Shown: positions 16,521 to 40,628, counted from the stretch's first letter. The stretch: 44,146 nucleotides of DNA from Myxococcales bacterium (GCA_029881215.1 JAOUNA010000006.1:1-44146), one strand, 5' to 3'. A program made the numbers and translations. The notes: generated by a model from the letters alone, not told the origin.

Positions 16521-17257
16521 GCGGCGCCTCCGATGCGGCGCGTGAGATGCGCGGCCAGGAGTCCTGGGGCGCCCAGCAGGGCCCGCGCGTAGACGCCGGA
16601 GAGTCTCACGTTGTCGCGCAGCATGTCGAAGTGGGACAGGCCCTCGCTCCGGTAGATCACGCGGGTCGGCACGCTGCGAATCGCGACCCCTCTCCGCTGC
16701 AGGTGGATCACGAGCTCCGGATCGAACTCCATGTGATCCCCCGTCCGCACCGCGTCGAGCAGCGCCACCGCGCTCGCGAGAGGGATCCCGCGAAATCCGC
16801 ACAGCGGATCCACCACGTCGAAGGAGAGCGTGGCGAGCCACACCATGGCCCGGGAGAGCTGGCGCCCGACCAGCCGGCTGCGCGGCGCGGTGGCGTCGAA
16901 GCGCGGCACGCCGAGTACGAGTGCGTCGGGATCGCTCGCGATGGCATCGAGGAAACGCGGCACGTCCGCTGCGTCGTGCTGGCCATCGGCGTCGAGCTGG
17001 ATCGCGTGGCTGAAGCCGCGCTGCGCAGCGAGTCGATAGCCCGTCTTGAGCGCGGCGCCGCGCCCGCCGTTCCTCTCGCGCCGGTGCACGCTGAGCCAGG
17101 GGTACGCGCGCTCCAGAGCGCGCAGCACCGCGCGCGTCTCCGGGCCGGAGCCGTCGTCGATCACGAGGCACGCGAGCTCGAACCGCTCGAGCTCCCGCGC
17201 GACGCCGCCGATCTCGTCCTTGTGCTCGAAGATCGGGATCAGGAGGCACGGATTCAA
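16505..17257 (-). CDS. family 2 glycosyltransferase
   Basis: The 250-residue GT-A enzyme has CLLIPIFEHKDEIGG at the N-terminus, CLVIDDGSG, NGGRGAALKTGYRLA and the metal-binding DADG in QLDADGQHDAADVP. It then has DVVDPLCGFRGIP and a C-terminal hydrophobic/basic end. The pattern resembles dolichol-phosphate-sugar or APE-cluster GT2 proteins. It may glycosylate the anchor or the aryl head group. The start is TTG 17257, overlapping the ligase TGA as TTGA, with GAGGA about 9 nt upstream. No ATG or GTG exists before the first conserved strand, so the TTG start is well supported. Confidence 0.85.
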   Translation of the reverse strand: MNPCLLIPIFEHKDEIGGVARELERFELACLVIDDGSGPETRAVLRALERAYPWLSVHRRERNGGRGAALKTGYRLAAQRGFSHAIQLDADGQHDAADVPRFLDAIASDPDALVLGVPRFDATAPRSRLVGRQLSRAMVWLATLSFDVVDPLCGFRGIPLASAVALLDAVRTGDHMEFDPELVIHLQRRGVAIRSVPTRVIYRSEGLSHFDMLRDNVRLSGVYARALLGAPGLLAAHLTRRIGGAAWHTR

Positions 17258-20163: not shown

Positions 20164-21738
20164 ATGGTGGTCGAAAGCACGCAAGCCGCTGGAGATTCCC
20201 GCGCATGTGAGCCGGTCCACGTGATCGGACTGCGCAGCTTCGCCGTCCCGGACGTGCTCGCGATGGCGCGCGGCGAGGTCCGGGTGGAGCTCTGCGACGA
20301 TCCCGCGTATCGCGCGCGCCTGGCGCGGGGACGCACCGCCGTCGAGCGCGCGCAGCAGATCGGCGACACCGTATACGGCGTCACGACCGGTGTCGGCGCG
20401 TCCAGCCACGTGGTGATTCCGCTCGAGCTGCGCGAGGACCTCGCCGCCAACTTGATGCGCTTCCACGGCTGCGGCACCGGGCGCGCGCTCAGCGAGCTCG
20501 AGTCCGCCGCGGTCGTGGCGGTGCGGCTCGTCTCGCTGGCGCGCGGCTACTCCGGTGTGCGCGAGACGCTCCTGCAGCGCCTCTGCGATCTGCTCAACGC
20601 GCGCCTCCTGCCGCGCATTCCCGAGGAGGGATCCGTCGGCGCGAGCGGCGATCTCACGCCGCTGTCCTATCTCGCCGCACTGCTCGCGGGCGAACGCGAG
20701 GCGACGCTGCGCGGCCGGGAGCTGACGGCGGCGCAGGGTCTCGCCGAGATCGGAGTCGAGGCCCTCGCCCTGGCGCCGAAGGAGAGCCTGGCGCTCATGA
20801 ACGGCACCGCCGTGATGACCGCCATCGCTTGCGTCACCTGGGAGCGCGCCGCGCGCCTCGCGCGCCTCGCCGCGGCCATCACCTCCATCGTCGTCGACGT
20901 GACCCGGGGCAACCGCGGCCACTTCGATGCGCGCATCTTCGAGCTGAAGCCGCATCCCGGCCAGCAGCGCTGCGCGGAGTGGATTCGCGCGGATCTCGAG
21001 CTGGATCCCGGCAGCGAGGCGCCCGCTGCGGCGCGGCTGCAGGATCGCTATTCGCTGCGCTGCGCGCCGCACGTCATCGGCGTGCTCGTGGATGCGCTCG
21101 AGGAGGCGCGCCGCATCCTCGACGTCGAGATCAACAGCGTCAACGACAATCCGCTGGTGGATCCCGATACCGGGGACGTGCTGCACGGGGGCAACTTCTA
21201 TGGCGGCCACGTGTGCTTCGCGATGGACGGGCTCAAGGCATCGCTGGCCAGCGTGGCGGACCTGCTCGATCGGCAGCTCGCCCTGCTGTGCGTGCCCGAG
21301 ACCAGCGCGGGCCTCTCGCCGAATCTCGTGGCGGCGTCGAGTCCGTCCCATCACGGCTTCAAGGCCATGCAGATCAGCGCCTCGGCGCTGACCGCGGAAG
21401 CCCTCAAGCTCACCATGCCCGCGGCTGCGTTCAGCCGCAGCACCGAGTCCCACAACCAGGACAAGGTGAGCATGGGAACCATTGCCGCGCGCGACTGCCG
21501 CAGGGTGGTGGAGCTCACCGAGACGGTTGGATCGATCGCACTGCTGGCCGCGTGCCAGGCGCTGGATCTTCGCGACGGCGGCAGCGGGGCGCGGCGGGCG
21601 CGGGCGCTGCACGAGGCGGTGCGCAAGGCGGCGCCGATGGTCGCCGAGGATCGGCGGCTGGACGGTGACATCGCTCGCGTGCTCGAGATGCTGCGTGGCG
21701 ACGCCCTGCCCCTGGGTTCGTATTCGTCCGCGCGATGA
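20164..21738 (+). CDS. aromatic amino acid ammonia-lyase (HAL/PAL/TAL family)
   Basis: The 524-residue lyase carries the MIO tripeptide Ala160-Ser161-Gly162 in EEGSVGASGDLTPLSYLAALL, the catalytic Tyr71 in VYGVTTGVG, LMNGTAVMTA, LQDRYSLRCAPH, INSVNDNPL, HGGNFYGGH and NQDKVSMGT. The family removes ammonia from His, Phe or Tyr to give a 2-enoic acid. In the pigment context the expected product is cinnamate or p-coumarate, the aryl starter. The substrate-selectivity pair reads Phe100-His101 (RFHGCGTG), unlike Ser-His of histidine or His-Leu of tyrosine lyases, so the substrate is open. A LolA-exporter block follows on the same strand. Confidence 0.9.
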   Translation: MVVESTQAAGDSRACEPVHVIGLRSFAVPDVLAMARGEVRVELCDDPAYRARLARGRTAVERAQQIGDTVYGVTTGVGASSHVVIPLELREDLAANLMRFHGCGTGRALSELESAAVVAVRLVSLARGYSGVRETLLQRLCDLLNARLLPRIPEEGSVGASGDLTPLSYLAALLAGEREATLRGRELTAAQGLAEIGVEALALAPKESLALMNGTAVMTAIACVTWERAARLARLAAAITSIVVDVTRGNRGHFDARIFELKPHPGQQRCAEWIRADLELDPGSEAPAAARLQDRYSLRCAPHVIGVLVDALEEARRILDVEINSVNDNPLVDPDTGDVLHGGNFYGGHVCFAMDGLKASLASVADLLDRQLALLCVPETSAGLSPNLVAASSPSHHGFKAMQISASALTAEALKLTMPAAAFSRSTESHNQDKVSMGTIAARDCRRVVELTETVGSIALLAACQALDLRDGGSGARRARALHEAVRKAAPMVAEDRRLDGDIARVLEMLRGDALPLGSYSSAR

Positions 21739-21805: not shown

Positions 21806-22510
21806 ATGGCGCGGGCACACTTCTCCTGGAAATCCCGCATGAGATCCGCGATCGCCTGTGCGCTTGGTGCGATTCTCTCGAGCAGCGCCCTCTGCGCGCA
21901 GGCGCAGCTGCACGATGCGTCGCGGTCGCTCACGCTCGAGCAGCTGCTGCGCTCGATGGCCACGAGCGCGGGAGTCTCCGCGCAGTTCGAGGAGAGGAAG
22001 GAGCTCGCCCTGCTGAGCGCGCCTCTCGAGAGCCGCGGACGCCTCTATTTCGAGCCTCCGGATCGCTTCGCGCGCTTCACGACCGGGCCCGCGGTCACCG
22101 CGCTGGTGATCGACGGGGAGCGCGTGCACTTTCGCGAGAGCTCGGACGCCGAAGCGCTCGATCTGTCCGGCAATCCCATGACGCGGGCCTTCGTGGAGAA
22201 TTTCATCGCCCTCTGGAGCGGCGACCGAGAGCGCCTCGAGCGCCTCTACGACGTGACGCTGGCCGGCGATCGCGCACGCTGGGAGCTCTCCCTGGCGCCG
22301 CGCGCGGGTCCGCTGGATCGCTTCATCGAGCGCATCACGCTGCGCGGCAGGGAGGCGGCGCTCACGCAGATGATCGTGCGCGAAACGGACGGCGATCGCA
22401 CCGTGACCGAATTCGCCGCCATGCGGCTCGACCGCGCGTTCAGCGCCGACGAACGCCAACAGATCTTCGCGCGGGGCGTGCCCCTCGACGAGCCCGCCGA
22501 GGCGCGGTGA
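21806..22510 (+). CDS. LolA-like outer-membrane lipoprotein carrier
   Basis: The 234-residue periplasmic protein has a Sec signal peptide (basic N-terminus, hydrophobic core, cut near CAQA/QLHD). The LolA-type body shows SLTLEQLLRSMATSAGVSAQFEERKEL, a beta-rich middle (ESRGRLYFEPPDRF) and QMIVRETDGDRTVTEFAAMRLD. APE loci carry a dedicated LolA-like protein thought to carry the hydrophobic product across the periplasm. The start is ATG 21806 with GAGGAG 7 nt upstream. Its stop overlaps the next start as GTGA, coupling it to the exporter. Confidence 0.85.
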   Translation: MARAHFSWKSRMRSAIACALGAILSSSALCAQAQLHDASRSLTLEQLLRSMATSAGVSAQFEERKELALLSAPLESRGRLYFEPPDRFARFTTGPAVTALVIDGERVHFRESSDAEALDLSGNPMTRAFVENFIALWSGDRERLERLYDVTLAGDRARWELSLAPRAGPLDRFIERITLRGREAALTQMIVRETDGDRTVTEFAAMRLDRAFSADERQQIFARGVPLDEPAEAR

Positions 22511-24879
22511 GTCGCCGGAGAGCGCTCGCGCTCGCCGCGGCAGCGGTCGCCATGCTGGTGTACTGCGCGCTGCATCTGCGCGTGGGAACGGATCTGACGC
22601 ACTTCATGCCCGACGGAAGCCGATCCGAGATCGCCGTGATTTCGAGTCGTCTGACCGATTCCCCCTTCACCCGCGCGATGGTGCTCTCGGTCGAGGGGCC
22701 GGATACGCAGGCGGCGGTGGCGGCCGCGTCGCAGCTGGCGGAGCTGCTTCGGGGTCACGCGGAGGTCGCCTGGGTGCGCTCCGCGGTGGGAGAGGCGGAT
22801 CTCGAGGCGCTCTACGCGCTCTACTTTCCCCGGCGCCATTATTTCCTGTCCGACCGGCCCGAGCGCGAGATCCCGGCGCTGCTCTCGGAAGCCTCGCTGC
22901 GGGAAAGCGCGAGCAGGCTGCGCCAGCGGCTCGCGTCGCCTGCCTCGAGCTTCGTCGAGCGACTGGCTGCGGCGGATCCGATCGGTGCCTTCGAGCGCAT
23001 TGCGCGCCGCTTCCGATCCGAGGAGCCCGCGCTGCGCGTGGTGCACGGGCAATTCGTCACGAGCGACGGCCGGCACGCGATCGTTCTGGCCGGAACGCAC
23101 GCCTCGGCATTCGATTCGGGAGCGCAGACGCGCCTGCTCGACGACGTATACGCGGCGTTCGCGGCGCTCGACGCCGAGAGCGGCGGCGCGCTGCGCCTCG
23201 AGATGAGCGGCGCGAACCGCTTCGCGGTCGAAGCAGAGCGCAGCATGAAGCGCGATGTCTACCGCATCGCGGCCTGCTCCTTCATGGGCGTCGCGCTGCT
23301 GTTCTTCGTCTTCGTCGCCTCGCTTCGCGGCTTCCTGGTGGTGTCCGTGCCCCCGCTGGGCGGCATGCTGATCGCGACCACGGCCGGGGTGGCCCTGTTC
23401 GGAAACATCGACGGTCTCACCATGGTGTTCGGCGCCTCGCTGATGGGCATCGCGATCGACTACTCCAATCATCTGCTCATCCATCACGGCCTCGCGCAGC
23501 CCGCGGAGTCACCGCGCGAGACGGTGCGGCGCATCCGCCCGAGCATCACCCTGGGTGCGCTCACCACCATCGCGAGCTTCGCGGGTCTCGCCCTCACGGC
23601 GTTTCCCGCCTTCCGCGAGATGAGCTTCTTCGCCGCTGTCGGCGTGGCGGCGGCTCTCGTGCTGAGCCTCCGCGTGCTGCCCGACCTGGTGGCGACGGTT
23701 CCGCCGCTGCCGCAGCGCACGCGGATCGTGGCGGCGCGCCTCGGCGCGCTCCTGACGCGGATCGGAGCGCTGCCGCGCGCCTTCCTGCTGGCGCCGCTCG
23801 CCGTCGGCGCGCTGGCGGCCCTCGCGCTGCCGCGCCTGGAGTGGTCGGACGACATGTCGCAGCTCACGCGCTTCGATCCCGAGTTCGTGGCCGAAGATCT
23901 GCGCGTTCGCGAGCGCACTTCGAGTCTCGACAACACCCGCTTCGTGCTGGGCCTGGCGCGGGACGGCACGGCGGCCCTCGCCCTGAACGAAGCGATCCAC
24001 GAGCGATTGCAGGGCGCGATCGAATCCGGCGCGCTCGAGGGGCAGCGCTCGCTGCACGGACTGCTCTGGTCCGAAGCGCTGCAGCGGCGCAACGCGGCGG
24101 TGGTCTCCGCGCAGGCGGGGCTCGAAGAGCGAGTCGAAGCCGTGTTCACGAGCGAGGGATTCCGACCCGGCGCATTTCGCGAATTCGAGGCGTTTCTCGC
24201 CGCCGCCCCGGCCGCCGCTCCGCTGCGGCTCGAGGATCTGGCGCAGAGTCCGCTGCGCGATCTGCTGGCGCCCTTCGTGTTTCGGCTCGGCGACGAGATC
24301 GCCGTCGTCACCTATCTGCGCGGGCTGCGCGCGCCCGAAGCGGTGCGCGCGGCGCTCGCGGATCTCGGCGGCGTGCACCTGCTCGACCAGCGGCGCTTCG
24401 TGAACGACATCTACCGCGAATTTCGCGAAACCAGTCTGCGACAGATGCTCGTCGGGGGCGCGCTGGTGCTGCTGCTCCTCGGTCTGCGCTATCGCGCCTG
24501 GAGGCCGGTCGTCGCGGCCTTCTTCCCCTCGGCGCTCGTCGCCCTGATCGTGCTCGCCATGCTCGCGCTCTTCGGCGTGCAGGCCAACCTGCTGCACGTC
24601 ATGAGCCTCGTCATGGTGATGGGCATGGGCGTGGATTACGGCGTATTCCTGGTGGACAGCGCGGGGCATCGGGACACGTTCGGCGCGACGATGCTGAGTC
24701 TGCTGATGTCCTGCCTCACCACCGCCTTCGTCTTCGGCACGCTCGCCTTCTCTTCGCAGCCCGCGCTGCAGGCGATCGGCGTGACCACGGGCGTCGGAAT
24801 CCTGCTCTCCTATCTGCTCGCGCCGGTCACCCTGATCGCGCTCGAGGTCGGGCGGGGTGGGCGTGCGGCGCCCCACTAG
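22507..24879 (+). CDS. MMPL/RND-family exporter of the pigment locus
   Basis: The 790-residue inner-membrane protein has an N-terminal TM segment, a large periplasmic domain (about 30-255), about five TM segments (about 255-420), a second TM and periplasmic domain and a closing TM bundle (about 645-785). MGIAIDYSNHLLIHHG and MVMGMGVDYGVFLVDS are the two copies of the RND proton-path Asp motif (GIDY/GVDY). This matches the COG4258 predicted exporter of APE loci. It would export the aryl polyene lipid, handing it to the LolA-like and lipoprotein partners. The start is GTG 22507. Confidence 0.9.
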   Translation: MSRRRALALAAAAVAMLVYCALHLRVGTDLTHFMPDGSRSEIAVISSRLTDSPFTRAMVLSVEGPDTQAAVAAASQLAELLRGHAEVAWVRSAVGEADLEALYALYFPRRHYFLSDRPEREIPALLSEASLRESASRLRQRLASPASSFVERLAAADPIGAFERIARRFRSEEPALRVVHGQFVTSDGRHAIVLAGTHASAFDSGAQTRLLDDVYAAFAALDAESGGALRLEMSGANRFAVEAERSMKRDVYRIAACSFMGVALLFFVFVASLRGFLVVSVPPLGGMLIATTAGVALFGNIDGLTMVFGASLMGIAIDYSNHLLIHHGLAQPAESPRETVRRIRPSITLGALTTIASFAGLALTAFPAFREMSFFAAVGVAAALVLSLRVLPDLVATVPPLPQRTRIVAARLGALLTRIGALPRAFLLAPLAVGALAALALPRLEWSDDMSQLTRFDPEFVAEDLRVRERTSSLDNTRFVLGLARDGTAALALNEAIHERLQGAIESGALEGQRSLHGLLWSEALQRRNAAVVSAQAGLEERVEAVFTSEGFRPGAFREFEAFLAAAPAAAPLRLEDLAQSPLRDLLAPFVFRLGDEIAVVTYLRGLRAPEAVRAALADLGGVHLLDQRRFVNDIYREFRETSLRQMLVGGALVLLLLGLRYRAWRPVVAAFFPSALVALIVLAMLALFGVQANLLHVMSLVMVMGMGVDYGVFLVDSAGHRDTFGATMLSLLMSCLTTAFVFGTLAFSSQPALQAIGVTTGVGILLSYLLAPVTLIALEVGRGGRAAPH

Positions 24880-26014: not shown

Positions 26015-27463
26015 TCAATCCAGGGGCGCCTCGCTGCGGCGCAGCTTTCCGCTCGAGGTGTGCGGCAGGGCATCCACGGCGATGAACTCGCGGGGGATCT
26101 TGTAGGCGGGCAGGCGTGCGCGGCAGTGCGCGAGCAGGTCGGCACGGCTCGCGGGGTGTGCCGCGTTCTCGGCGACGAACTGCGCCACGGGAATCTGGCC
26201 GAGCTGGGCGTGCGGGCGCGCGGAGACGCGGCTCTCGCGCACCTCCGGGTGGGCGTCGAGCACCGCCTCGACCTCCTCGGCGAAGAACTTCATGCCCGCC
26301 ATGCTGATTCGGTTGCTGCGCCGGCCGGCGAGATGCAGATCCCCGTCCGCATCGAACCAGCCCTGATCGCCGGTGCGGAAGCCATCGGGCTGCAGGATCT
26401 CGCGCGCCGGAAGCCAGGGGTCCAGGTAGGCGTCGAGCATGCCGGGGCCCCGGATGCAGATCTCCCCGGTGTGCTGCGCCGACGTGCAGCCGGAGACGGG
26501 CCGGCCGTCCTCGCCGCGCAGCCACACCTGGTAGTCCGGCAGCGGCCGGCCGAGAGACGCGGGCTTGCGCGCCGCGTGTTCCAGATTGGCGACGGGAAGC
26601 CCCACCTCGATGATGCCGAGCGCCTGCGCCACGGGAGAGCCGAAGCGGCTCGCGAAGCGCTCGGCCACGGCGCTCTGCAGTCCGTCCGCCGTCGAGATGG
26701 CGCGGCGCAGCCCGGGAAGCTGCAGGCCGGACACGTCCTTGGCCAGCAACTGGTAGTGATGCGGAGAGGCGTACAGCAGCGTGGCGCGCTCGCGGCTGGC
26801 GAGCTCGAGGATGGGGCGCGCGAGCCCGCTGGCGGGCAACAGGATCGAGGCGCCCTCGCGCAGATACAGCAGGATGGAGACCACGAAGTGGTGCGCCATC
26901 GGCAGCAGCCACAGCACGCGGTCCTGCGGCCCGATCTCGAGCGCGCGGTTCGCCGCCGTCAGGCGCGCGTCGATGGCAGCGTGGCCGAGCAGCACGCCCT
27001 TGCGCCGATTCGTCGTGCCCGACGTGAAGCGCAGATACGCCGGCTGCAGCGCGCGAAAGCTGCGGTCGCCCGCGCCGTCGACCGCGCCCGCGTCGGGGTA
27101 GGAGTCGAGGCGGAAATTCGGATCGTCCTGCTCGACTCGGTGGTGCAGGCGCGAGCGCCGCACGAGATCGTCGAGCACCGCGCCGCGGTGATCGTCGGGA
27201 ATCGGGGCGAGGCAGGCATCGGCCGCCAGGATGCCCAGAGCCAGCTCGATGAAGCCCCGGCCCTGGCGCGCCTGCAGGCCGCAGCGATCTCCCGCCCGCA
27301 CGCCTTCGGCCGCGAGCCGTTTCGCGTGGGCTTCGAAGCTCGCGACGAGCTCGGCGTAGGACACGGTCCGGGTTCCGCCCCGGCGATCGTCGAGCAGGAG
27401 CGCCGGGTGCGCCGGCCGGCGCGCCGCCTGCGCGCGAATGGCATCGATGACGGTCACGGCCAC
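26015..27463 (-). CDS. acyl/aminoacyl-AMP ligase 2 (adenylate-forming enzyme)
   Basis: This 482-residue adenylate-forming enzyme has RFTSGTTNRRKGVLLGH (P-loop), the core motifs LPMAHHFVVS and QALGIIEVGLP, GEICIRGPGML, FRTGDQGWFDADGDLHLAGR, RISMAGMKFFAEEVE and the catalytic C-terminal Lys in PHTSSGKLRRSE. It is a stand-alone ligase, shorter than the usual 500-550 residues and lacking a fused carrier. It is the last gene of a four-gene minus-strand unit with an ACP, a condensation-like protein and a flavoprotein, so it probably loads that ACP. The substrate is unknown. GTG 27463 has GAGGAG just upstream and overlaps the flavoprotein stop by 10 bases. Confidence 0.85.
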   Translation of the reverse strand: MAVTVIDAIRAQAARRPAHPALLLDDRRGGTRTVSYAELVASFEAHAKRLAAEGVRAGDRCGLQARQGRGFIELALGILAADACLAPIPDDHRGAVLDDLVRRSRLHHRVEQDDPNFRLDSYPDAGAVDGAGDRSFRALQPAYLRFTSGTTNRRKGVLLGHAAIDARLTAANRALEIGPQDRVLWLLPMAHHFVVSILLYLREGASILLPASGLARPILELASRERATLLYASPHHYQLLAKDVSGLQLPGLRRAISTADGLQSAVAERFASRFGSPVAQALGIIEVGLPVANLEHAARKPASLGRPLPDYQVWLRGEDGRPVSGCTSAQHTGEICIRGPGMLDAYLDPWLPAREILQPDGFRTGDQGWFDADGDLHLAGRRSNRISMAGMKFFAEEVEAVLDAHPEVRESRVSARPHAQLGQIPVAQFVAENAAHPASRADLLAHCRARLPAYKIPREFIAVDALPHTSSGKLRRSEAPLD

Positions 27464-28755
27464 GCGCTCTCCTCATCCGTCGCCAGAATGTGGTGCCGCA
27501 CGTCGGCGGCCGCAATCGCGGACAGATCGCTGCAGGCGTCCGCCGCCAGCGCCGCCGCCACCCCCACCGCTTGTCCCGTCGCCAGCGCCGTGCCGATCAC
27601 GCGCAGCGCGCCCAGCGCCGCGTGGCTCGCGGACACGCAGCGGCCCGCCGTGCCGAGTCGCGGGTGGGAGCGGCTCACGAGCGCGCCGAGCGGCACGGAG
27701 CAGGGCCGCTTCGGATACTCGAAGTGCGCGCGCCGGTGATCGCGCCAGAGCTCGATCGGCCAGGTCGAGACCGCCACCTCGTCGTCTCGCACCCGACCGC
27801 CGAGCACATCGTCGCGCTCGAGCGTCGCGATGCCGCGCAGGCGGCGGGTCTCGCGGATGCCGATCCGCTCGGGCCAGGCGAAGACCCGGCTCTGCTCGAA
27901 CGCGGGGCGGTTGTCGCGCAGGAAGGCCGCCACGAGTCGCGCGCTCTGCTTGGCGCGCGCTTCGAGCCGTCTCAGGCACTCCGAGTCGAGTGGGTCGTAG
28001 TCGCTTCCGGGCGGGCGCGGCACGTTGAGCGTGACGTAGACCTCATCCGCGGCCGCGCCGCGCCGCACGAGCACCGACTCGCAGCCCCCCGGCAGCCGCC
28101 CGTCGCGGACCGCGCCCGCCAGCGCCTGCGTGAGTCGCAGCCTGGCGAAGCCGGCGATCGCGCTGGTGTCAACACCGTGCAGCGTGAAGATGTAGGAGGG
28201 CGCCTGCAGCTCTTCAGGCGGCGCCTGCACGACCTCCGCGCCGCCCGCCGCGGCGAGCGCCGCGTCGCCGCTGGCATCGACGACGATGCGTGCTTCGATC
28301 TCGCGCGCGCCGCAGGCAGCGCCCCGCAGCTGCAGCACGTGCGGCGCGGCGCGATCCCGCGCGAGGCTGGCGCCGATCAGCGCGCAACGCGTCCAGAGCG
28401 AGAGGGACGGTGTCGCGGCGCACAGCTCGGCCGCGACCCGCGCGAGGCGCGGCGGGTGCGTGGGAAGCACGAAGACGCGCCCCGCCCGCTCCACGGCGCC
28501 GGCCGCGCCCGCCCGCTGCAGGCGCTCCGCGAAGTGCCGCGGCAGGCCCGGATTCGCGAAGGCGGGCGCGCCCTCGCCCGCGGGTCGGTAGAGCCCGCAG
28601 ATGGTGTGGACACAGGCCTGCGTCGCATTTCCGCCGAGCACGTCGGCGCGCTCGACCAGCAGCGTGCGCGCCCCGCGCCGCGCCGCGGCCACGGCGGCCG
28701 CGATGCCGGCCGAACCTCCGCCCACCACCGCCACGTCGAACCACGTGCGCTGCAT
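27454..28755 (-). CDS. FAD-dependent oxidoreductase (PF12831-like)
   Basis: The 433-residue protein starts with DVAVVGGGSAGIAAAVAAARRGARTLLVER, a dinucleotide fold, then DVLGGNATQACVHTICGLYRP, the FAD_oxidored-type loop. It closes with AGRCVSASHAALGALRVIGTALATGQAVGVAAAL, the flavin-binding C-terminal motif. VDASGDAALAAAGG is the internal second Rossmann contact. Such enzymes catalyse oxidations on varied substrates. It sits 8 bases after the condensation-like gene and overlaps the ligase gene by 10 bases, so it is likely to act on the ACP-bound or transferred substituent. The reaction is unknown. Confidence 0.78.
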   Translation of the reverse strand: MQRTWFDVAVVGGGSAGIAAAVAAARRGARTLLVERADVLGGNATQACVHTICGLYRPAGEGAPAFANPGLPRHFAERLQRAGAAGAVERAGRVFVLPTHPPRLARVAAELCAATPSLSLWTRCALIGASLARDRAAPHVLQLRGAACGAREIEARIVVDASGDAALAAAGGAEVVQAPPEELQAPSYIFTLHGVDTSAIAGFARLRLTQALAGAVRDGRLPGGCESVLVRRGAAADEVYVTLNVPRPPGSDYDPLDSECLRRLEARAKQSARLVAAFLRDNRPAFEQSRVFAWPERIGIRETRRLRGIATLERDDVLGGRVRDDEVAVSTWPIELWRDHRRAHFEYPKRPCSVPLGALVSRSHPRLGTAGRCVSASHAALGALRVIGTALATGQAVGVAAALAADACSDLSAIAAADVRHHILATDEESAWP

Positions 28756-28763
28756 CGCGGCGC

Positions 28764-30110
28764 TCAGGCGAGCAGATCTTCGCGGAGCTGGGCGGCGAAG
28801 ATCTCCCGCTCGCGCTGTGTCAGCACGTCGTCCTGGAAGACGTGCGTCGCGTTGAGGTGTCCCGCGTACAGGCTCATCGCGATGCAGCTCCCCGGAGAGG
28901 GCGGCACCGGTGCAACGTGGAATCCGTTGCGGATTTCGCTGCCGAGGAAGTGATCCAAGCCGTCCAGGAATTCGCCCGTGTAGGCGAAGAAGAACGAACA
29001 CAGCTCACCGCGCAGCGCGGAGCGCGCCAGGTGCGCGTACAGCCGCGTCGGCGCAAACCGCGCGAAATCCATCGCGTACACGCCGTTCTCCACGTGGCCG
29101 CTGCGGATCGCGTCCAGGCGCTGCTGCTTGAGCACGGCGAGCAGGGCGTCGAGCGAGCCCGTTTCGCTGCTCGGGACGTGGAACCACAGCAGCGAGGTGT
29201 GCGTGCGGAAGACGGCCGCGGCGGCACCCTTCGCACGCAGATTGACGGGCAGCGGCACCACGAAGCTGCCCGGATCCACGCCCCGCGCCCGGAAGACGGC
29301 GTGGTGCGCGCGGATCGCCACCGACAGGTAGAAGAGCATCGGCGTCAGGAAGCCCGCCCGGCGCTGCGCGGAGGCGACGATGCGCGCGGTCTCCTGCGTC
29401 GAGAAGGTGTGCACGTCGTAGCGCAGCGACTGGCGCGTGCGGCGCAGCGGTCCGGCCAGCGAGCGCATCGGCGGGTCGCCGAGCGCGCTCACCCAGCGCT
29501 GCCAGCGCGTGGCGCCTTCCCCGCGCTCCCGGAGGCTCCGCTCGGGCCGCTCGGCGGGTGCCAGCTCGTTGGGATCGGGGGTGATCTCCGGCGTGGCCGC
29601 GCCCCGGAAACACGCGTCGAGCCAGCGCACGAAACACTCGCTGCCGGCCCCGTCGAAGAGCAGGTGCGCCCAGCTCGCCGCGAGGTCCGTTCCGGCGGCT
29701 CCGCCGGCGTAGCGCACGATGTCGAAGCGCAGCAGCTCGCCGCGCCGCAGCGAGAGCGGCTGGTTCAGCCGCGCGGCGAAACGCGCCGGCAGCGCGGCGT
29801 CCGGCGCCGGGCTGTCATGCACTGCCACCTCGGGGAGCGGGCGCCGCGCCGCGGCGCGCGTGCAGTACGCGGGCGGCCCCACTCCCAGGCGCCGGCGGAT
29901 GGGCGCGCGCACGATCGGCTGGGCGCGCGCGACCTGCTCCACCAGCTTGGTGAAGATGCCCGCGTCGAAGCCCGGGCCGAGGCGCAGCACCAGCTGGGAG
30001 CTGTGGCTCGATCCGGCGCAGCGGCGGATCTCGTGCTCGAAGGCGCGCAGGAAGCAATCGGCGCCCGTCAGCGGAAGGTGCGCGGGCAACTGGGGCGGAA
30101 CGCCTCGCAA
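28764..30110 (-). CDS. condensation-domain/acyltransferase-like protein (HX3D)
   Basis: The 448-residue protein has the HHxxxD-family motif as ASWAHLLFDGAG, with His149 and Asp153. It also shows features of the two-lobed CAT fold seen in condensation domains and wax-ester-synthase-like transferases: DILRFDIVRY-like first lobe, FVVPLPVNLRAKG and a C-terminal AGHLNATHVFQDDVL. Such enzymes join an ACP-bound acyl or aminoacyl group to an amine or alcohol. The second His of the classic motif is replaced (AH rather than HH). The start is TTG 30110, one base after the ACP stop; no SD is visible, so coupling is expected. Confidence 0.75.
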   Translation of the reverse strand: MRGVPPQLPAHLPLTGADCFLRAFEHEIRRCAGSSHSSQLVLRLGPGFDAGIFTKLVEQVARAQPIVRAPIRRRLGVGPPAYCTRAAARRPLPEVAVHDSPAPDAALPARFAARLNQPLSLRRGELLRFDIVRYAGGAAGTDLAASWAHLLFDGAGSECFVRWLDACFRGAATPEITPDPNELAPAERPERSLRERGEGATRWQRWVSALGDPPMRSLAGPLRRTRQSLRYDVHTFSTQETARIVASAQRRAGFLTPMLFYLSVAIRAHHAVFRARGVDPGSFVVPLPVNLRAKGAAAAVFRTHTSLLWFHVPSSETGSLDALLAVLKQQRLDAIRSGHVENGVYAMDFARFAPTRLYAHLARSALRGELCSFFFAYTGEFLDGLDHFLGSEIRNGFHVAPVPPSPGSCIAMSLYAGHLNATHVFQDDVLTQREREIFAAQLREDLLA

Positions 30111-30111
30111 G

Positions 30112-30372
30112 TTAGGCGCCCGAGAGCTGCTCGTACAGCAGGGCCGCGAGCGCCTCGGCGGATTCGAGGTGTTCGGGTGTGAGCAGGCTCTCGTCCACCC
30201 AGACGCCGGTGCTCTCTTCGATGGAGAGCATGAGCTGCGTCACGGCCAGCGAGTCGAGGCCCGCCTCGAGAAGATTCGAGCGCGCCGTGAAGCTCCCGTC
30301 CACGTCGAGAATCTCGTCGCGGAGCAGCTGGAAGACGCGCTCGGTCAGCGCTTCTCGCGTCGGGATCGACAC
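30112..30372 (-). CDS. acyl/peptidyl carrier protein 2
   Basis: The 86-residue protein has LLEAGLDSLAVTQLMLSIEE, with Ser41 as phosphopantetheine site. The GLDSLAV form with a more hydrophobic helix II is closer to peptidyl or stand-alone carriers than to ACP1 and ACP3 of this locus. It heads a minus-strand unit (ACP2, condensation-like, flavoprotein, ligase 2). GTG 30372 is 7 nt after a TACCCT hexamer with no ribosome site, suggesting a leaderless start. The start is divergent from the halogenase-like gene. Confidence 0.85.
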   Translation of the reverse strand: MSIPTREALTERVFQLLRDEILDVDGSFTARSNLLEAGLDSLAVTQLMLSIEESTGVWVDESLLTPEHLESAEALAALLYEQLSGA

Positions 30373-30379
30373 GCGCAGC

Positions 30380-30385
30380 AGGGTA
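30380..30385 (-). promoter_or_regulatory. -10-like TACCCT, 7 nt before the ACP2 start
   Basis: TACCCT (minus strand) ends 7 nt before GTG 30372. It is the same hexamer as at bioA and the DAO-family gene. Candidate leaderless promoter of the second ligase-ACP unit. Confidence 0.4.
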
Positions 30386-30456
30386 GCAGCCGGCCGCGCG
30401 GGATGGCACATGGAGAGAGTGGCGGAACGGCTGAAGGGGCGGAACATTCTGTGCCC

Positions 30457-31725
30457 ATGACTCCGCAACACGGCGCTTCCCTGGAGCCGCGCGCGCGGCG
30501 CCGCATCGCGGTCCTCGGCGGCGGACCGGCGGGCGCCGGCGCTGCCGCGTTTCTCGCGGGCGCCGGTCTGGACGTGTGCGTCTTCGCGCGCGGCAAGCGT
30601 CCGCCGATCATCGTCGGCGAATCGCTGGTGCCGGCGGTGGTGCCCTATCTGCGCCGGCTCGGCATCGAGGAGGAGGTCGCGGCCTACAGCGTCTGGAAGG
30701 GCGGCGCGACCTTCGTCTTCGATCGCGAGTCGCGGCTCAACATCCGCTTCGACGAGGTGCGTGACGCCAAGACGACCTACTCCTACAACGTGCCGCGGGA
30801 TCGCTTCGACGCGTCGATCCTCGGCGCCGCGCAGCGCTGCGGCGCTCGCGTCGTCGAGCTGACCGCCCGCCTCGAGCGCGACGGCGACTCCGACCGGGTG
30901 CGGCTTTGCGGCGACGCACTCGCCGCGGCGGGCTGGAGCGAGCAGCCCGATCTGGTGATCGACGCGGGCGGGCGGAGTCGCGTGCTCACCCGCCTGCTGG
31001 GCATTCCCCACCTCGAGGGAGACCGCCGCGACACCGCGCTCCACGCCCACTTCGAGGGCATCGAGGTCGAGGTTCCCGGCAACGTGCACACGGATCGGCT
31101 CGAGCACGGCTGGGCCTGGCGCATCCCGCTGCAGGGACGCGTATCGATGGGGCTCGTCGTCGACGGGGACATCCTGCGCAAGTTCGGCGACAGCGCCGAA
31201 GAGCAGATGGATGCATATCTTCGGCACGATGCGGTGATCCGGGATTTCGCGCGCCCGGCGCGCCGCGTCACACCGGTGGTGCGCTACACGAACTACCAGG
31301 CGCGCACGACCCGGGGTGTCGGGGAGAACTGGGCGCTGGTCGGGGACGCCTTCGGATTCGTGGATCCCGTCTTCTCGAGCGGTGCGCTGGTTGCGTTCCA
31401 GAGCGCGGATCTGCTGGCCCGGGCCGTCGTGAGCGGCGATCCCGCCGCACTGGCGCGCTACGAGAAAGAGGTGATGCGCAACCTCGACACCTGGCATCGG
31501 GTGATTCGCTGGTTCTACGACGGCCGCCTGCTCACGCTGTTCCGGGTGGGGCAGTACGTGCGCGAGACCTGGCCCGGCCGGCTGGTGGACTTCCACTTCC
31601 GCAAGCACATGCCCAAGATCTTCACCGGGGAAGACGTGACCAACCGCTACAGCCTCGCGTTGGTGAGCTTCATGGTGAAGCACGGGCTTGCCCGCAACGA
31701 TCCCCGCGCGCTGCAGATCCTCTGA
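30457..31725 (+). CDS. flavin-dependent halogenase-like protein
   Basis: The 422-residue flavoprotein has the FAD-binding GGGPAGAGAAAFLAGAG, VGESLVPAVVPYLRRLGI, and YSVWKGGATFVF with Lys81 at the place of the halogenase catalytic Lys (Lys79 of PrnA). It also has the family signature WxWxIP as Trp219-Ala-Trp221-Arg-Ile-Pro224, and VGDAFGFVDPVFSSGALVAFQSADLL. These features fit the tryptophan-halogenase/phenol-halogenase-like group, which chlorinate or brominate with FADH2 and O2; some relatives are monooxygenases. Brominated xanthomonadins show that aryl polyenes can be halogenated. Its neighbours are a CrtI-like enzyme and the KS pair. No partner flavin reductase is in the window. Confidence 0.75.
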   Translation: MTPQHGASLEPRARRRIAVLGGGPAGAGAAAFLAGAGLDVCVFARGKRPPIIVGESLVPAVVPYLRRLGIEEEVAAYSVWKGGATFVFDRESRLNIRFDEVRDAKTTYSYNVPRDRFDASILGAAQRCGARVVELTARLERDGDSDRVRLCGDALAAAGWSEQPDLVIDAGGRSRVLTRLLGIPHLEGDRRDTALHAHFEGIEVEVPGNVHTDRLEHGWAWRIPLQGRVSMGLVVDGDILRKFGDSAEEQMDAYLRHDAVIRDFARPARRVTPVVRYTNYQARTTRGVGENWALVGDAFGFVDPVFSSGALVAFQSADLLARAVVSGDPAALARYEKEVMRNLDTWHRVIRWFYDGRLLTLFRVGQYVRETWPGRLVDFHFRKHMPKIFTGEDVTNRYSLALVSFMVKHGLARNDPRALQIL

Positions 31726-31765: not shown

Positions 31766-33301
31766 GTGAGGTTCCACGCCGAAGCCAAGCGGGATCGCTA
31801 CGACGTCGTCGTCGTCGGAGCGGGTGTCGGTGGACTCACCGCGGCGGCGATTCTGGCCCACGCCGGCCGCAGCGTGCTCCTCGTCGAGCGCCACGACCGC
31901 CTCGGGGGCTACGCGCACGCATTCCGGCGCGGGCGCTACCTCTTCGATTCGGCGGTGCACCTGGTGGGAGGCTGTGAGCCGGGACCCTTCGAGGGGAGCG
32001 GGCTCATCCACCAGCTGCTTTCGATTCTCGGCGTCCGCGACCGCTGCGCCTTCGCGCGCATCGATCCGTGCTACACCGCGGTGTATCCCGGATTGAGCGT
32101 GGAGGCGCCCTGCGACTTCGACGAGTTCCTGCGCGCGTACGCGGAGGAATTTCCGTCGGAGCAGAAGGCCCTGCGCCAGTTCCTCCAGGAGTGTCTCAAC
32201 GTCCGCCAGGAGGCGCGTCGCGCCGCACAGCTGGCGAGCGCCTACGACGTGATGAGCTCGCCGGATCGCTTCCCGACGCTGCTTCGCTATCGGCGCGCGA
32301 CGCTCTCGAACGCGCTCGACGCGCATCTCGCCTCGCCCCGGCTCAAGACGGCGCTGGGCTCCCTGTGGCCCTACGTGGGCCTGCCGCCCTCGCGCGCCTC
32401 GTTCCTCTACTACGCGACGATGCTGATGAGCTACATCGCCGACGGCGCCTACTACTGCCGGGGCAGCTTCCAGCGCTTCGCGGATGCGCTCGGCGAGGCG
32501 CTCACGATGCGCGGGGGAGAAGTGCTGCTGCGCAGCCCGGTGCGCCGGATCCGCGTCGAGCGCGGACGGGTGACGGGCATCGTCCTGGAGAACGGTCAGA
32601 GGATCGACGCGCCCCTGGTGATCTCCAACGCAGATGCGCTGCAGACGATCGAAGAGCTGGTGGGGGAGCACGCCTTTCCGGAGCGTTACATGGCCGGCTT
32701 GCGCAGCCTGAAGCCGTCGCTCTCCGCCTTCGTCACCTACCTGGCGGCGGATCTGCCGCTCCCGAGCGCCATCCGCCACCACGAGACGTTCTTCTTTCCC
32801 TCTCTCGATCACGATGAGGCCTTTCGCGACAGTCGCGCGGGCGCTCCGTCGTGGTTGACGATCACGGTGCCGACCCTGGCCGATCCCGACCTGGCGCCGC
32901 ACGGTGTGCACCTGCTCGTGCTCACCACGCTGGCTCCCCATCGCGTGGAGGGGGGCTGGCGGGCGGACAAGGAGCGCATGACGGCGCGCATGCTGGGGCT
33001 CGCCGAGCGCTACGTCGGGGAGGACCTGGGCGGGCGCAGCCGCCTGATCGAGAGCGGCACCCCGCGGACCATGGAGCGCTACACGCGGAACGCGGAGGGC
33101 GCCATCTACGGCTGGGAGCTCTCGCCGGCGCAGGTTGGCCCGGCGCGACCCGGCCCGCGCACGCCGGTCGAGGGGCTGCGCCTGGTGGGACACTGGACCC
33201 AGCCCGGCGGCGGCATCTACGGCGTGGTTTCTTCGGGAATCCAGACGGCGCGCGGCGTGCTGGATGCGCCCGGCGAGACAGCGCCCTGGGACGCCCTCTA
33301 G
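31766..33301 (+). CDS. CrtI-like (phytoene desaturase/carotenoid isomerase family) FAD oxidoreductase
   Basis: The 511-residue protein begins with DVVVVGAGVGGLTAAAILAHAG and VERHDRLGGYAHAFRRG, the CrtI/CrtO-type dinucleotide region. It ends with the carotenoid-oxidoreductase motif LVGHWTQPGGGIYGVVSSGIQTARGVL. Between them are SWLTITVPTLADPD and long helical regions expected for a hydrophobic polyene pocket. Family members desaturate or isomerise polyenes. Here an action on the aryl-polyene chain is likely but inferred; similar genes occur with other polyene pigment clusters. GTG 31766 is the first start before the Rossmann strand. Confidence 0.85.
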   Translation: MRFHAEAKRDRYDVVVVGAGVGGLTAAAILAHAGRSVLLVERHDRLGGYAHAFRRGRYLFDSAVHLVGGCEPGPFEGSGLIHQLLSILGVRDRCAFARIDPCYTAVYPGLSVEAPCDFDEFLRAYAEEFPSEQKALRQFLQECLNVRQEARRAAQLASAYDVMSSPDRFPTLLRYRRATLSNALDAHLASPRLKTALGSLWPYVGLPPSRASFLYYATMLMSYIADGAYYCRGSFQRFADALGEALTMRGGEVLLRSPVRRIRVERGRVTGIVLENGQRIDAPLVISNADALQTIEELVGEHAFPERYMAGLRSLKPSLSAFVTYLAADLPLPSAIRHHETFFFPSLDHDEAFRDSRAGAPSWLTITVPTLADPDLAPHGVHLLVLTTLAPHRVEGGWRADKERMTARMLGLAERYVGEDLGGRSRLIESGTPRTMERYTRNAEGAIYGWELSPAQVGPARPGPRTPVEGLRLVGHWTQPGGGIYGVVSSGIQTARGVLDAPGETAPWDAL

Positions 33302-33358: not shown

Positions 33359-34564
33359 ATGACGATCGCGAGCCCCCGCACTGCCTCCTCGCTCGCGGCG
33401 CTGGGGATGGTCAACGCGCTGGGGCGTGACACCGGCGAGATCTGGCGGCGCCTGCTCGCCGCGGATCAGTCCCACTTCCGCCTGCGAGACGACCTGGTCC
33501 CGGAGCGGCGCCTTTGGATCGGCGAGGTGGAGGGCGAGCTGCCCCGCATTCCGGCGCGCCTGCGCCGCTACGCCTGCCGAAACAATGCGCTCACCCTCGC
33601 GGCACTCGAGCAGATCGAGTCCGTGATCGCAGAGGCGATAGCCGCGGTGGGACGCGACCGGGTGGGCGTCGTGATGGGGACGAGCACGTCCGGCGTGAGC
33701 GACGCCGAGGCCGCGATCCGCCATCGCGAGCGCACCGGACGGCTCGCCGAAGAGTTCGACTACGATCAGCTCGAGTTCGGCGGCGCGGCCGGATTCATCG
33801 CCCATCTCCTCGAGATCGAAGGCCCGGCCTACACGATCTCCACCGCCTGCTCCTCGGGTGCGCGCTCCCTCGCGAGCGCGCGCGAGCTGATCGATCTGGG
33901 GATCTGCGACGCCGTCATCGCGGGTGCGACCGACAGCATCTGCGGACTCACCGCCAACGGCTTCTCGGCGCTGCAGGTGGTCGCGGACGGCATCACGAAT
34001 CCGTGCAGCGCGAACCGGGCCGGGCTGACGCTCGGCGAGGGCTCGGCGATCTTTCTGGTGATGCGCGGCGGTCGCGGCGTGCAGCTGCTCGGCGTGGGCG
34101 AGTCGAGCGAGGCGCACCACATGTCCGCGCCGGATCCCGCCGGCCAGGGGGCGGAGCAGGCGATGAGCGCCGCGCTGCGGGATGCAGACATGGCCGCGTC
34201 GGCGATTGCCTACCTCAATCTGCACGGCACCGGCACCTCGCTCAACGACGTCATGGAGTGCGCCGCCATCGGACGCGTCTTCTCCGCGCTGCCGCCCTGC
34301 AGCTCGACGAAGTCGCTGGTGGGGCACACGCTGGGCGCTGCGGGCGCCATGGAGGCCGGCTTCTGCTGGCTCATGCTGCAGGCGATTTGCGCCGGCGTGA
34401 TGCCGCTGATTCCGCACGCCTACGACGGCGTGCGCGACCCGGAGCTGGTGCCCGTCTCGCTGGTGACGCCGGGGCAACAGTGTCCCGCCGGTCCGGTGAT
34501 GACCAACTCCTTCGGCTTCGGCGGCAACAACTGCACGCTCGTGCTCGCGAGTGCTTCGGCATGA
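33359..34564 (+). CDS. beta-ketoacyl synthase 1 (ApeO-like KS)
   Basis: The 401-residue ketosynthase has all three catalytic residues: Cys164 in STACSSGARSL, His in LHGTGTSLND and His in KSLVGHTLGAAGA. It ends with TNSFGFGGNNCTLVL. It is immediately followed by a shorter KS-like gene without catalytic Cys, overlapping as ATGA. This is the arrangement of the ApeO:ApeC KS-CLF pair in characterised aryl-polyene synthases, which extend the starter with malonyl-ACP units. The two probably form a heterodimer. A third KS at 36025-37260 is FabF/ApeR-like. Confidence 0.92.
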   Translation: MTIASPRTASSLAALGMVNALGRDTGEIWRRLLAADQSHFRLRDDLVPERRLWIGEVEGELPRIPARLRRYACRNNALTLAALEQIESVIAEAIAAVGRDRVGVVMGTSTSGVSDAEAAIRHRERTGRLAEEFDYDQLEFGGAAGFIAHLLEIEGPAYTISTACSSGARSLASARELIDLGICDAVIAGATDSICGLTANGFSALQVVADGITNPCSANRAGLTLGEGSAIFLVMRGGRGVQLLGVGESSEAHHMSAPDPAGQGAEQAMSAALRDADMAASAIAYLNLHGTGTSLNDVMECAAIGRVFSALPPCSSTKSLVGHTLGAAGAMEAGFCWLMLQAICAGVMPLIPHAYDGVRDPELVPVSLVTPGQQCPAGPVMTNSFGFGGNNCTLVLASASA

Positions 34565-35295
34565 GGGCCGCGCGCGTGCGGAGCTGGGCCGCGTGGTCGC
34601 CCGGAATCGAGGACCGCGACGCGTGGCGCGCCTGGTGCGAAGAGCCCAAGGAGCTCGCGCGCGAGGGGCGTCCCGCGGCGAACTTCCTGCCCCCGCTGCT
34701 GCGGCGGCGCTGCAGCGGGCTGGCGCGCATCATGCTCAGCGCCGCCTTCGATTGCTGCGAGCCCGAGGTGCGCGCGCAGGTCGCGACGGTGTTCGCGTCG
34801 CGCCACGGCAACATCAACGAGTCGATCGAGCTGCTCGAGCGGCTGGCGCGCGGCCAGGCGCTCTCGCCCACCCGATTCAGTCACTCGGTGCACAACGCGC
34901 AAGCGGGGCTCTACTCGATCGCGGCGGACAATCGCCAGGCCTCGAGCTCCATCGCAGCCCAGGAGGACACCTTCGGCTCGGGCTGGATCGAGGCGCTCAC
35001 GCTGCTCGCACGGGATCCACGCCGGCCCGTGCTGCTGGTGGTGGGCGACGTTCCCCTGGCGGCGACCTTCGCCGCCCTGGTCGACGAGCCCGAGACGTCG
35101 TACGCGCTGGCGCTGCTGCTCGAGGCGGACGCGCCGGGCGTCGGCGTGCGCATCGCGCTCGAGCACGGCGCGCCGCAGGCGCGACGCCCGCGCTGGCCCG
35201 ACGCGCTCGAGTTCCTGCGCTGGTTCCTCTCGGACGCGCCCCGCCTGTCCCTGGCCTGCGGCCGTCGGCGCTGGGTCTGGGAGCGCACGGCGTAG
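34561..35295 (+). CDS. CLF-like, Cys-lacking ketosynthase-related protein (ApeC-like)
   Basis: The 244-residue protein resembles the truncated KS family PF13723 that pairs with ApeO. It shows VFASRHGNINESIELLERLA, LSPTRFSHSVHNAQAGLYSIAA (the place of the KS active Cys is occupied by Ala/Gln), and FGSGWIEALTLLARDPRRPVLLVVGD. As a chain-length-factor-like subunit it would set or stabilise the polyene length. The start is ATG 34561, overlapping the KS1 stop (ATGA), which supports stoichiometric expression. Confidence 0.85.
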   Translation: MRAARVRSWAAWSPGIEDRDAWRAWCEEPKELAREGRPAANFLPPLLRRRCSGLARIMLSAAFDCCEPEVRAQVATVFASRHGNINESIELLERLARGQALSPTRFSHSVHNAQAGLYSIAADNRQASSSIAAQEDTFGSGWIEALTLLARDPRRPVLLVVGDVPLAATFAALVDEPETSYALALLLEADAPGVGVRIALEHGAPQARRPRWPDALEFLRWFLSDAPRLSLACGRRRWVWERTA

Positions 35296-35312
35296 CCCGG
35301 GCGGCTCACGGC

Positions 35313-36044
35313 ATGCGCCGCTCCGACGTTCCGGCAACGCTGCTCCGCTCCGCGCGCGGCGAGGTGGCTCGGGCGCTGCAGGTCGTCTCCTTTCTCGCCT
35401 ATCCGTTCGTGGTCTACCTGGCCTACGCGCGTCTGGGCACGCGCCGCCTCGCGGTCGCATTGCTCGTCGTGTACGGGCTCGCGCTGCTCGCGCGCATCCG
35501 GAAGCGGCGTGTCGATGCCTGGCGCATCGCCCGCCAGCATCTGGGGCTCGTGCTGCTGATCGCCCTGGCGCTCGCCAGCGGCGAGCGCACGCTGCTGCTG
35601 CTCCTGCCCGTGGTGGTGAGCCTCTATCTGCTCTGGACATTCGCCGCGAGTCTGCGCAACGGGCCGCCGATGATCGAGCGGTTTGCCCGGCTGGTGGAAG
35701 AAGATCTCCCGGAGTTCACGCTGCCCTACTGCCGCAAGGTCACGTGGGTGTGGTGCGGGTTCATGGCCTGCAACGCGGTCGTCGCGGGTGTGCTCGCGGT
35801 GGCTGCGCCGCTCGAGTGGTGGGCGCTCTACACCGGCCTGATCTTCTACCTGCTGATGGGCGCGCTCCTCGGCGGGGAATTCGTCGTGCGCAAGCTGTGG
35901 TTTCGCCACTATCAGGCGGGTGCCGCGGATCGGGCGCTGGCCTGGGCGTTTCCCGCCGAGCGGACCGCGAACGGACGGCGCTCACTCGCCTACCAGGCGG
36001 AGCGCGACGCCCGGCGGGCTGCGGCTAGTCGCTCCAGCGCCTGA
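35313..36044 (+). CDS. COG4648-like membrane protein of aryl-polyene loci (copy 2)
   Basis: The 243-residue protein has about six hydrophobic segments and the same landmarks as copy 1: LPYCRKVTWVWCGFM (about residue 138), GGEFVVRKLWFRHYQAG and WAFPAERTANGRRSLAYQ. It shares only these landmark motifs with copy 1, so they are diverged paralogues rather than a recent duplication. The presence of two copies in one locus is unusual. It overlaps the convergent KS3 gene by 20 bases at its 3' end. Confidence 0.72.
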   Translation: MRRSDVPATLLRSARGEVARALQVVSFLAYPFVVYLAYARLGTRRLAVALLVVYGLALLARIRKRRVDAWRIARQHLGLVLLIALALASGERTLLLLLPVVVSLYLLWTFAASLRNGPPMIERFARLVEEDLPEFTLPYCRKVTWVWCGFMACNAVVAGVLAVAAPLEWWALYTGLIFYLLMGALLGGEFVVRKLWFRHYQAGAADRALAWAFPAERTANGRRSLAYQAERDARRAAASRSSA

Positions 36045-37260
36045 ACACCAGCGAGGTGTTCACGCCGCCGAAGGCGAAGTTGTTGCTCATCACGATCTCG
36101 GCGTCGACCGCGCGCGGGGCTCCGCGCACGTAGTCGAGCGGGGCGCAGCGCGGGTCGAGGTCGTCCAGATTGAGCGTCGGAGCCACCCAGCCCTCGCCGA
36201 TCATCTCGAGGCTCATCCAGGCCTCCAGCGCGCCGCAGGCGCCGAGCGTGTGCCCCAGGTGGCCCTTCAACGAGCTGAACGGCACGCGCCCGCCGAACAC
36301 GGCGAAGGTGGCGCTGCTCTCCGCGATGTCGCCGATCACCGTCGCCGTGCCGTGCGCGTTCACGTAGCCGATCTCGTCCGCGCCGACGCCGGCATCGGCG
36401 AGCGCCAGGCGCATCGCCTCCTGCATGGTGTCGGGATGCGGGTTGGTCATGTGCCGCCCGTCGCAGTTGGTGCCGTAGCCGAGCACCTCCGCGCGGATGC
36501 GGGCGCCCCGGCTGCGGGCGTGTTCGAGCGCCTCGAGCACCAGACACCCCGCGCCCTCTCCCACGACGAGGCCGTCTCGGGCCGCATCGAAGGGGCGCGG
36601 CGTGCGCGTCGGCTCGTCGTTGCGCGTGGTGGCGGAGAAGAGGATGTCGAAGACGGCCGCGTCCATTTCGTGCAGCTCCTCCGCGCCTCCGGTCAGCATC
36701 ACGTCTTGTTGGCCGAACTTGATCGCCTCGTAGCCGAATCCGATGCCCTGGCTGCCCGACGTGCAGGCCGTGCACGTCGGGACGATGCGCCCCCGCGTGC
36801 CGATCAGGTTGGCGATGTTCGACGCGCAGGTGTGGCTCATGATCTGCAGGTAGTCGTTTGCGCCGATGCCGCGCAGCGTGCGCTCGATGAACAGCCGGCG
36901 CGCGTAGACGGCGATGGCGGGCGGGCTGCCGGAGCTGGATCCGTAGCTGACCCCCGCGCGGCCCGAAGCGATCACCGCGTGGTCGCGCAGCCCCGCGTCC
37001 TCGAGCGCCAGCTCGGCCGCGCGCGCCGCCATCAGCGAGACGCGCCCCATGGTGCGCGTCTTCTTGCGAGGCCAGCTCTCCGGAGTCGCGAAATCCGCGA
37101 CGCGAGCGCCGAGCTTCGTCTCCAGATCCTCGATGTCCTCCCATTCCGGCACGCGCGCCACCCCCGAGCGGCCCGACTGCAGGGCGTCGCGCACGTGCTT
37201 CCAATCCTGGCCGATGGGGGAGAGGCCAGCCATGCCGGTGATCACGACTCGTCGCGTCAT
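36025..37260 (-). CDS. beta-ketoacyl synthase 3 (FabF/ApeR-like)
   Basis: The 411-residue KS starts VVITGMAGLSPIGQDW and has Cys166 in CTACTSGSQGIGFGYEAI, His303 in NAHGTATVIGD and His337 in KGHLGHTLGACGALEAW. It ends with SNNFAFGGVNTSLVF. This is a complete FabF-like ketosynthase, equivalent to ApeR, which acts as a homodimer. It is the last gene of a minus-strand unit with PlsC 2, ACP3 and LpxL-like 2. The start is ATG 37260. Confidence 0.92.
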   Translation of the reverse strand: MTRRVVITGMAGLSPIGQDWKHVRDALQSGRSGVARVPEWEDIEDLETKLGARVADFATPESWPRKKTRTMGRVSLMAARAAELALEDAGLRDHAVIASGRAGVSYGSSSGSPPAIAVYARRLFIERTLRGIGANDYLQIMSHTCASNIANLIGTRGRIVPTCTACTSGSQGIGFGYEAIKFGQQDVMLTGGAEELHEMDAAVFDILFSATTRNDEPTRTPRPFDAARDGLVVGEGAGCLVLEALEHARSRGARIRAEVLGYGTNCDGRHMTNPHPDTMQEAMRLALADAGVGADEIGYVNAHGTATVIGDIAESSATFAVFGGRVPFSSLKGHLGHTLGACGALEAWMSLEMIGEGWVAPTLNLDDLDPRCAPLDYVRGAPRAVDAEIVMSNNFAFGGVNTSLVFRRWSD

Positions 37261-40607: not shown

Positions 40608-40628
40608 CGCGGTGTGCGAGGGGGGCGC

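Follow-up and report, generated by a model that had tools for sequence, protein, structure and literature searches.

A carrier protein-acyltransferase-flavoprotein-ligase cassette in a Myxococcales aryl-polyene gene cluster: a candidate tailoring module

What does a second adenylating ligase, with a carrier protein, a condensation-like acyltransferase and a flavoprotein beside it, do inside an aryl-polyene (APE) gene cluster? The question is raised by a 44,146-nucleotide stretch of DNA from a Myxococcales bacterium (GCA_029881215.1, JAOUNA010000006.1, positions 1-44146), referred to here as the window. The first-pass annotation, made from the sequence alone, described a four-gene minus-strand operon with the potential to activate an acid, tether it, oxidise it and transfer it to an acceptor, and we found all four genes, with the active-site residues it named, where it had placed them. 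The first, cACP (30112-30372, minus strand, GTG start), encodes a stand-alone acyl carrier protein of 86 amino acids with the phosphopantetheine serine, Ser41, in the motif GLDSL. It is followed on the same strand by cC (28764-30110), encoding a free-standing 448-amino-acid acyltransferase with an HX3DG motif (AHLLFDG; His149 and Asp153); by cFAD (27454-28755), encoding a 433-amino-acid FAD-dependent oxidoreductase with an invariant Cys53 after the FAD-binding segment; and by cLIG (26015-27463), encoding a stand-alone adenylating ligase of 482 amino acids with recognisable A4 (LPMAHHFVVS), A5 (QALGIIEVG) and A10 (Lys473) motifs. The junctions are operon-like: the cC reading frame opens 1 nt past the cACP stop, cFAD starts 8 nt past the cC stop, and cLIG overlaps the cFAD stop codon. 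Across 23 genomes, orthologues of the four genes are 47-68% identical at the amino-acid level and have invariant catalytic residues, and hence these are real genes rather than chance open reading frames of a GC-rich window. cACP itself matches PF00550 (Pfam, 1.2e-6), with a conserved GLDSL region and a serine that is invariant in 25 aligned homologues. One element of the original description was dropped: a TACCCT read as the cassette's own promoter lies only 7 nt before the cACP start codon, and a search of positions 29900-30900 found no sigma-70-like site.

The surroundings are those of an APE cluster. Pfam matches over positions 13601-38490 include a KS/CLF pair, KR, ApeP/ApeI dehydratases, an ACP, a starter ligase and LolA/MMPL export functions. 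Among these are an AMP-ligase fused to an ApeI-like dehydratase (17254-19059, minus strand, start approximate; PF00501 3.9e-19, ApeI-like 4e-6), which is the probable polyene-starter ligase; an aromatic amino acid ammonia-lyase (20227-21738, plus strand, start approximate; PF00221 5e-154), probably supplying the starter; LolA-like and MMPL transporter genes of the export set (21839-24879, plus strand); and a ketosynthase block at 33359-37245 (KS at 33359-34564 and ketoacyl-synt_2 at 34576-35295, both plus strand; KS at 36025-37245, minus strand). Two LpxL-like acyltransferases, a PlsC-like protein and two further ACPs are also present, as LpxL-like and PlsC-like acyltransferases and further ACPs are in cassette-free APE clusters. 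Just outside the cluster, at 39387-42173 (plus strand), lie genes for an aldo-keto reductase with a C-terminal 4Fe-4S-like domain and then a thiamine diphosphate enzyme.

The E. coli (apeA-R; PMC8253772) and Xenorhabdus APE clusters share with the window the KS, KR, ApeP/ApeI dehydratases, ACPs and starter ligase, as well as acyltransferases and LolA-like and MMPL/RND-type export genes, but the published E. coli list (PMC8253772) contains no condensation-like enzyme, FAD oxidoreductase, second ligase or halogenase. Flexirubin and arcuflavin biosynthesis come closer, with a lyase-derived aryl starter (flexirubin), a halogenase (arcuflavin) and, according to the main text of the two reports, a polyene acid joined by an ester to a second unit (PMC3992019, PMC3949708). 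That unit, however, is a dialkylresorcinol made by DarA/DarB, and the same main text describes no ACP-C-FAD-ligase operon. Neither DarA/DarB nor a KASIII-like gene was found among the window genes, and our literature search for an APE cluster with a condensation domain and a halogenase found none. The view that the cassette is an unusual addition to an APE cluster is therefore borne out by comparison with the published E. coli gene list and the main-text accounts of flexirubin and arcuflavin: the cluster is of a known kind, and what is new is an undescribed, putatively tailoring, module within it.

Comparison of related clusters bears on whether this module could supply the polyene with its aryl starter or head group instead of adding a second group. 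The ammonia-lyase nearby and the 4CL/aryl-acid-like A4 motif of cLIG point that way, as does flexirubin, which according to the main text of PMC3992019 begins from tyrosine via FlxA and FlxY, the counterparts of the window's lyase and fusion ligase. Yet both the lyase and the ligase-ApeI fusion are present in lyase-type APE clusters that have no cassette (L134-L139), the lyase is missing from one cassette-bearing genome (G002, which also lacks an adjacent halogenase), and a starter needs no HX3D transferase. This reading, already weakened, is thus very improbable. Since the lyase and fusion ligase occur in cassette-free clusters, they would serve the polyene starter, with cLIG as an additional, second ligase; for the same reason we rejected the lyase as a cassette-specific gene. 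In type I APE clusters (10 clear genomes) a separate starter ligase sits beside the KS and there is no lyase, halogenase, CrtI-like gene or cassette, so that fusion of ligase to ApeI marks the lyase type. Cassette-bearing clusters add the ACP-C-FAD-LIG set, a divergent halogenase gene and a CrtI-like gene. In two more genomes that have the KS but no cC (G019, G020), the contigs were too short for a type to be assigned. The window lyase has an ASG MIO triad and, at the selectivity position, an F-H pair (NLMRFHGCG), a motif compatible with either Phe or Tyr.

We then asked what kind of enzyme cC is. Searched by sequence against Pfam, NCBIfam, PHROGs and PDB, the window protein gave no match, and its identification consequently needed an orthologue scan and a structure. 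The AlphaFold model from a 19-orthologue alignment (pLDDT 90, pTM 0.91) has the CAT fold, the feature singled out beforehand as the one whose lack would count against a condensation-like enzyme. Its best Foldseek matches are AzeD (TM 0.72), C and Cy domains and the TRI3 O-acetyltransferase, with E values down to 4e-20, and NRPS epimerisation domains are also among its solved structural neighbours. His149 and Asp153 are invariant in the 19 orthologues, and homologues in another family have the motif HHALLDA or HHALMDA. The proposed family search against HMMs gave a divided answer: 12 of the 19 orthologues match PF00668 (Condensation; best 1.4e-7) and two match PapA_C, but the window protein matches neither. 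The WS/DGAT models PF03007 and PF06974 matched neither the window cC nor any orthologue in the alignment. Distant WS/DGAT-like proteins of the same phylum nevertheless align to cC over 424 columns with 99.9% probability as a profile match, at about 22-26% identity; one of them (L128), alone among the distant kin, is above cut-off for both WS/DGAT models. cC resembles WS/DGAT and PapA enzymes in its HX3D acyltransferase fold and differs from them in its low identity and in sharing an operon with a ligase, an ACP and a flavoprotein. From this kinship, an ester product would be no less likely than an amide.

The ligase matches AMP-binding (PF00501, 1.4e-48) and AMP-binding_C (PF13193, 9.5e-17) in Pfam and retains the P-loop, A7, A8 and A10 motifs; the ligase motifs are conserved both here and in the homologues from another family of the phylum. 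Its core A5 motif contains an unusual, invariant GIIE. In an alignment to LgrA, the invariant His192 stands where amino-acid A domains have Asp235. Without this amino-acid-binding residue, NRPS-type amino acid activation is disfavoured, and cLIG probably adenylates a plain carboxylic acid rather than an alpha-amino acid. The oxidoreductase matches PF12831 (1.2e-77, Pfam), its Cys53 is invariant in an alignment of 21 homologues, and its AlphaFold model is confident (pLDDT 94.8). Foldseek returned only generic flavoprotein matches for this model (TM about 0.4-0.5), with no close solved or characterised relative, and for this reason we assign cFAD no reaction.

Two plus-strand genes next to the cassette extend the unit. 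The first, HAL (30457-31725), is divergent from cACP. Its best solved matches are halogenases, including ChlB4, CmlS, PltA and Mpy16-type enzymes, and its catalytic lysine and WxWRIPL motif are kept in 21/21 and 20/20 readable orthologues, respectively. HAL is therefore a predicted flavin-dependent halogenase of the CmlS/PltA group, whose members among its solved neighbours act on carrier-tethered substrates. The second (31766-33301) encodes a CrtI-like (phytoene desaturase/amine oxidase) flavoprotein, with a match to PF01593 (2.8e-27, Pfam) and phytoene dehydrogenase as best solved match (9e-26); this gene adjoins the cassette in most loci, unlinked ones included. Because HAL and the CrtI-like flavoprotein travel with the four core genes, the conserved unit usually comprises six. 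The first-pass annotation read the four genes as one unit, and they do stay together and are tied to APE clusters, but it missed these two partners. In four relatives (L044, L045, L046 and L049), a second halogenase-like flavoprotein, 46-51% identical to HAL and absent from the window, lies by the ketosynthases at 3.6, 0.2, 0.4 and 4.6 kb, respectively.

A ligase, a carrier, a flavin oxidase and a flavin halogenase also act together on a carrier-bound acyl group in pyoluteorin biosynthesis (PltF-PltL-PltE-PltA). PltF, however, activates proline and is of the Asp235 type, and PltE has an acyl-CoA dehydrogenase fold, in contrast to the Asp235-less cLIG and the PF12831 protein cFAD. The nearest working precedent is OaaA/OaaACP/OaaC of Coprococcus eutactus, which make fatty acid amides with a separate adenylating enzyme, an ACP and a CAT-fold condensation enzyme, the acid being placed on the ACP and then transferred by C (PMC13142362). 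The Oaa system differs in having no flavoproteins, halogenase or polyene cluster, and OaaC belongs to the Condensation family, while the window cC on its own matches no Pfam model.

The reading we prefer, with a probability of roughly 0.55, is that the four genes form the centre of a module, most often of six genes, that tailors the APE by acylation. In the simplest reading of its steps, an acyl group would be loaded, modified while tethered, and transferred by cC. cLIG would adenylate a carboxylic acid other than an alpha-amino acid and load it onto Ser41 of cACP; cFAD would oxidise the acyl group there, and HAL and the CrtI-like protein may halogenate and/or desaturate it. His149 of cC would then deprotonate a hydroxyl or amine of the acceptor, and acyl transfer would yield an ester or amide. 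The acceptor would most likely be the aryl polyene or its glycolipid anchor, in which case a second acyl group would be present on the finished pigment. Conservation of the motifs for each chemical step favours the tailoring module. More tentatively, and with somewhat less than even odds, we suggest that APE lipids bearing a second acyl group, which may be halogenated and oxidised, are made through a free-standing NRPS-like module of ligase, ACP, CAT transferase and three flavoproteins. If so, they would be a class of APE conjugates distinct from dialkylresorcinol esters and plain APE glycolipids, and a minimal NRPS-like A-ACP-C set would have been co-opted by an uncultured lineage for decorating an otherwise unrelated pathway. 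A ligase-ACP-transferase-flavoprotein module confined to APE genomes leads one to expect a specific shift in pigment mass and provides a short list of candidate enzymes.

That the cassette acts on the APE product is suggested by co-occurrence and linkage. We searched 91 genomes of the class, presumably GTDB UBA9160; all are draft assemblies (the named ones MAGs), and absences may therefore be assembly gaps. A wider genome scan with two peptide patterns gave named relatives among uncultured Deltaproteobacteria, Myxococcota and similar MAGs, isolate UBA9160 being one of them; there may be further kin beyond the phylum. Orthologues of cC occur in 23 of the 91 genomes, every one of which has the APE ketosynthase family PF13723. 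The window KS has orthologues in 35 of the 91, including all 23 with cC; the hypergeometric probability of this by chance is about 4e-13, a figure that ignores genome relatedness. cFAD is found in 22 of the 23 cC genomes and in 0 of the other 68, and cLIG in 22 of the 23 and, as a fragment, in one further genome, 74% complete, that has the APE KS (G019). In 18 of the 23 the cassette and APE genes share a contig or face each other across a contig break, and cC protein distances correlate with those of APE genes and cassette partners (r 0.40-0.71). Finding the four genes together in polyene-free genomes had been named as the case that would point to an unrelated pathway; no such case was found among the 23 class genomes or in two genomes of another family, all of which are PF13723-positive.

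Not every copy is linked. Five islands (L060, L061, L062, L070 and G089, the last without an adjacent HAL) hold the cassette with its partners apart from APE genes within the stretch examined, and in G013 and G089 APE genes are present elsewhere in the genome. A dedicated tailoring set need not be away from its cluster, so the islands at G089, L060, L061 and L070 count against our reading, and together with L062 they favour a cassette that makes a separate metabolite, such as a halogenated acyl amide or ester, sharing only regulation or ecology with the pigment; the Oaa set is a free-standing A-ACP-C system that does yield a stand-alone product. We consider this alternative quite unlikely, given co-occurrence with APE ketosynthases in 23/23 and 2/2 genomes, no cassette in the non-APE genomes tested, and linkage in 18 of 23. 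The L060 contig, labelled Candidatus Binatia, has 47-68% identity over all six genes, which would reflect lateral transfer or else a MAG that is mislabelled or mixed.

A partial copy raises another possibility. In G043, cLIG and cFAD have been lost from a cassette that still has cACP, cC, HAL and the CrtI-like gene; either this copy is decaying or loading can sometimes do without cLIG. It would fit a scheme in which cC is a terminal polyene transferase, the finished polyene passing to cACP and being moved by cC to an anchor or head alcohol, with cLIG re-activating free polyene acid and HAL and the CrtI-like protein editing the polyene. The position of cACP within the APE operon in two genomes (G069, G070), the action of CrtI-like enzymes on polyenes and the esterification of long acyl chains by PapA and WS/DGAT kin all agree with this scheme. 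The LpxL-like and PlsC-like acyltransferases and two further ACPs already in the cluster, as in cassette-free ones, argue against it, and we regard it as unlikely, if a little less so than a separate metabolite.

Returning to the tailoring module, the four genes also occur, 27-45% identical and again in the order ACP-C-FAD-LIG, in two genomes from another family of the phylum (G106, G215). The G106 C gene runs over two contig ends with a sequence in common, and its neighbours encode a glycosyltransferase, a PlsC-like protein and an APE-type ACP. PF13723 ketosynthases are present in both of these genomes and absent from three others of the phylum that have only distant C-like proteins. Neither copy has adjacent halogenase or CrtI-like genes, which, like the want of a close characterised relative for cFAD, counts against the tailoring module. 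The shared order in these two genomes is the best indication that the ancestral unit would be the core of four genes and not all six.

Distant relatives of cC occur in other contexts. A different C-ACP-ligase trio with PapA_C and Condensation matches (L133:4405-7528), in a genome without an APE ketosynthase, possibly belongs to an acyl amide or ester pathway. Two WS/DGAT-like relatives of cC are found in a single genome, one beside a halogenase-like flavoprotein (L128:2690-5872) and the other beside a B12 radical SAM protein (L129:2427-5116).
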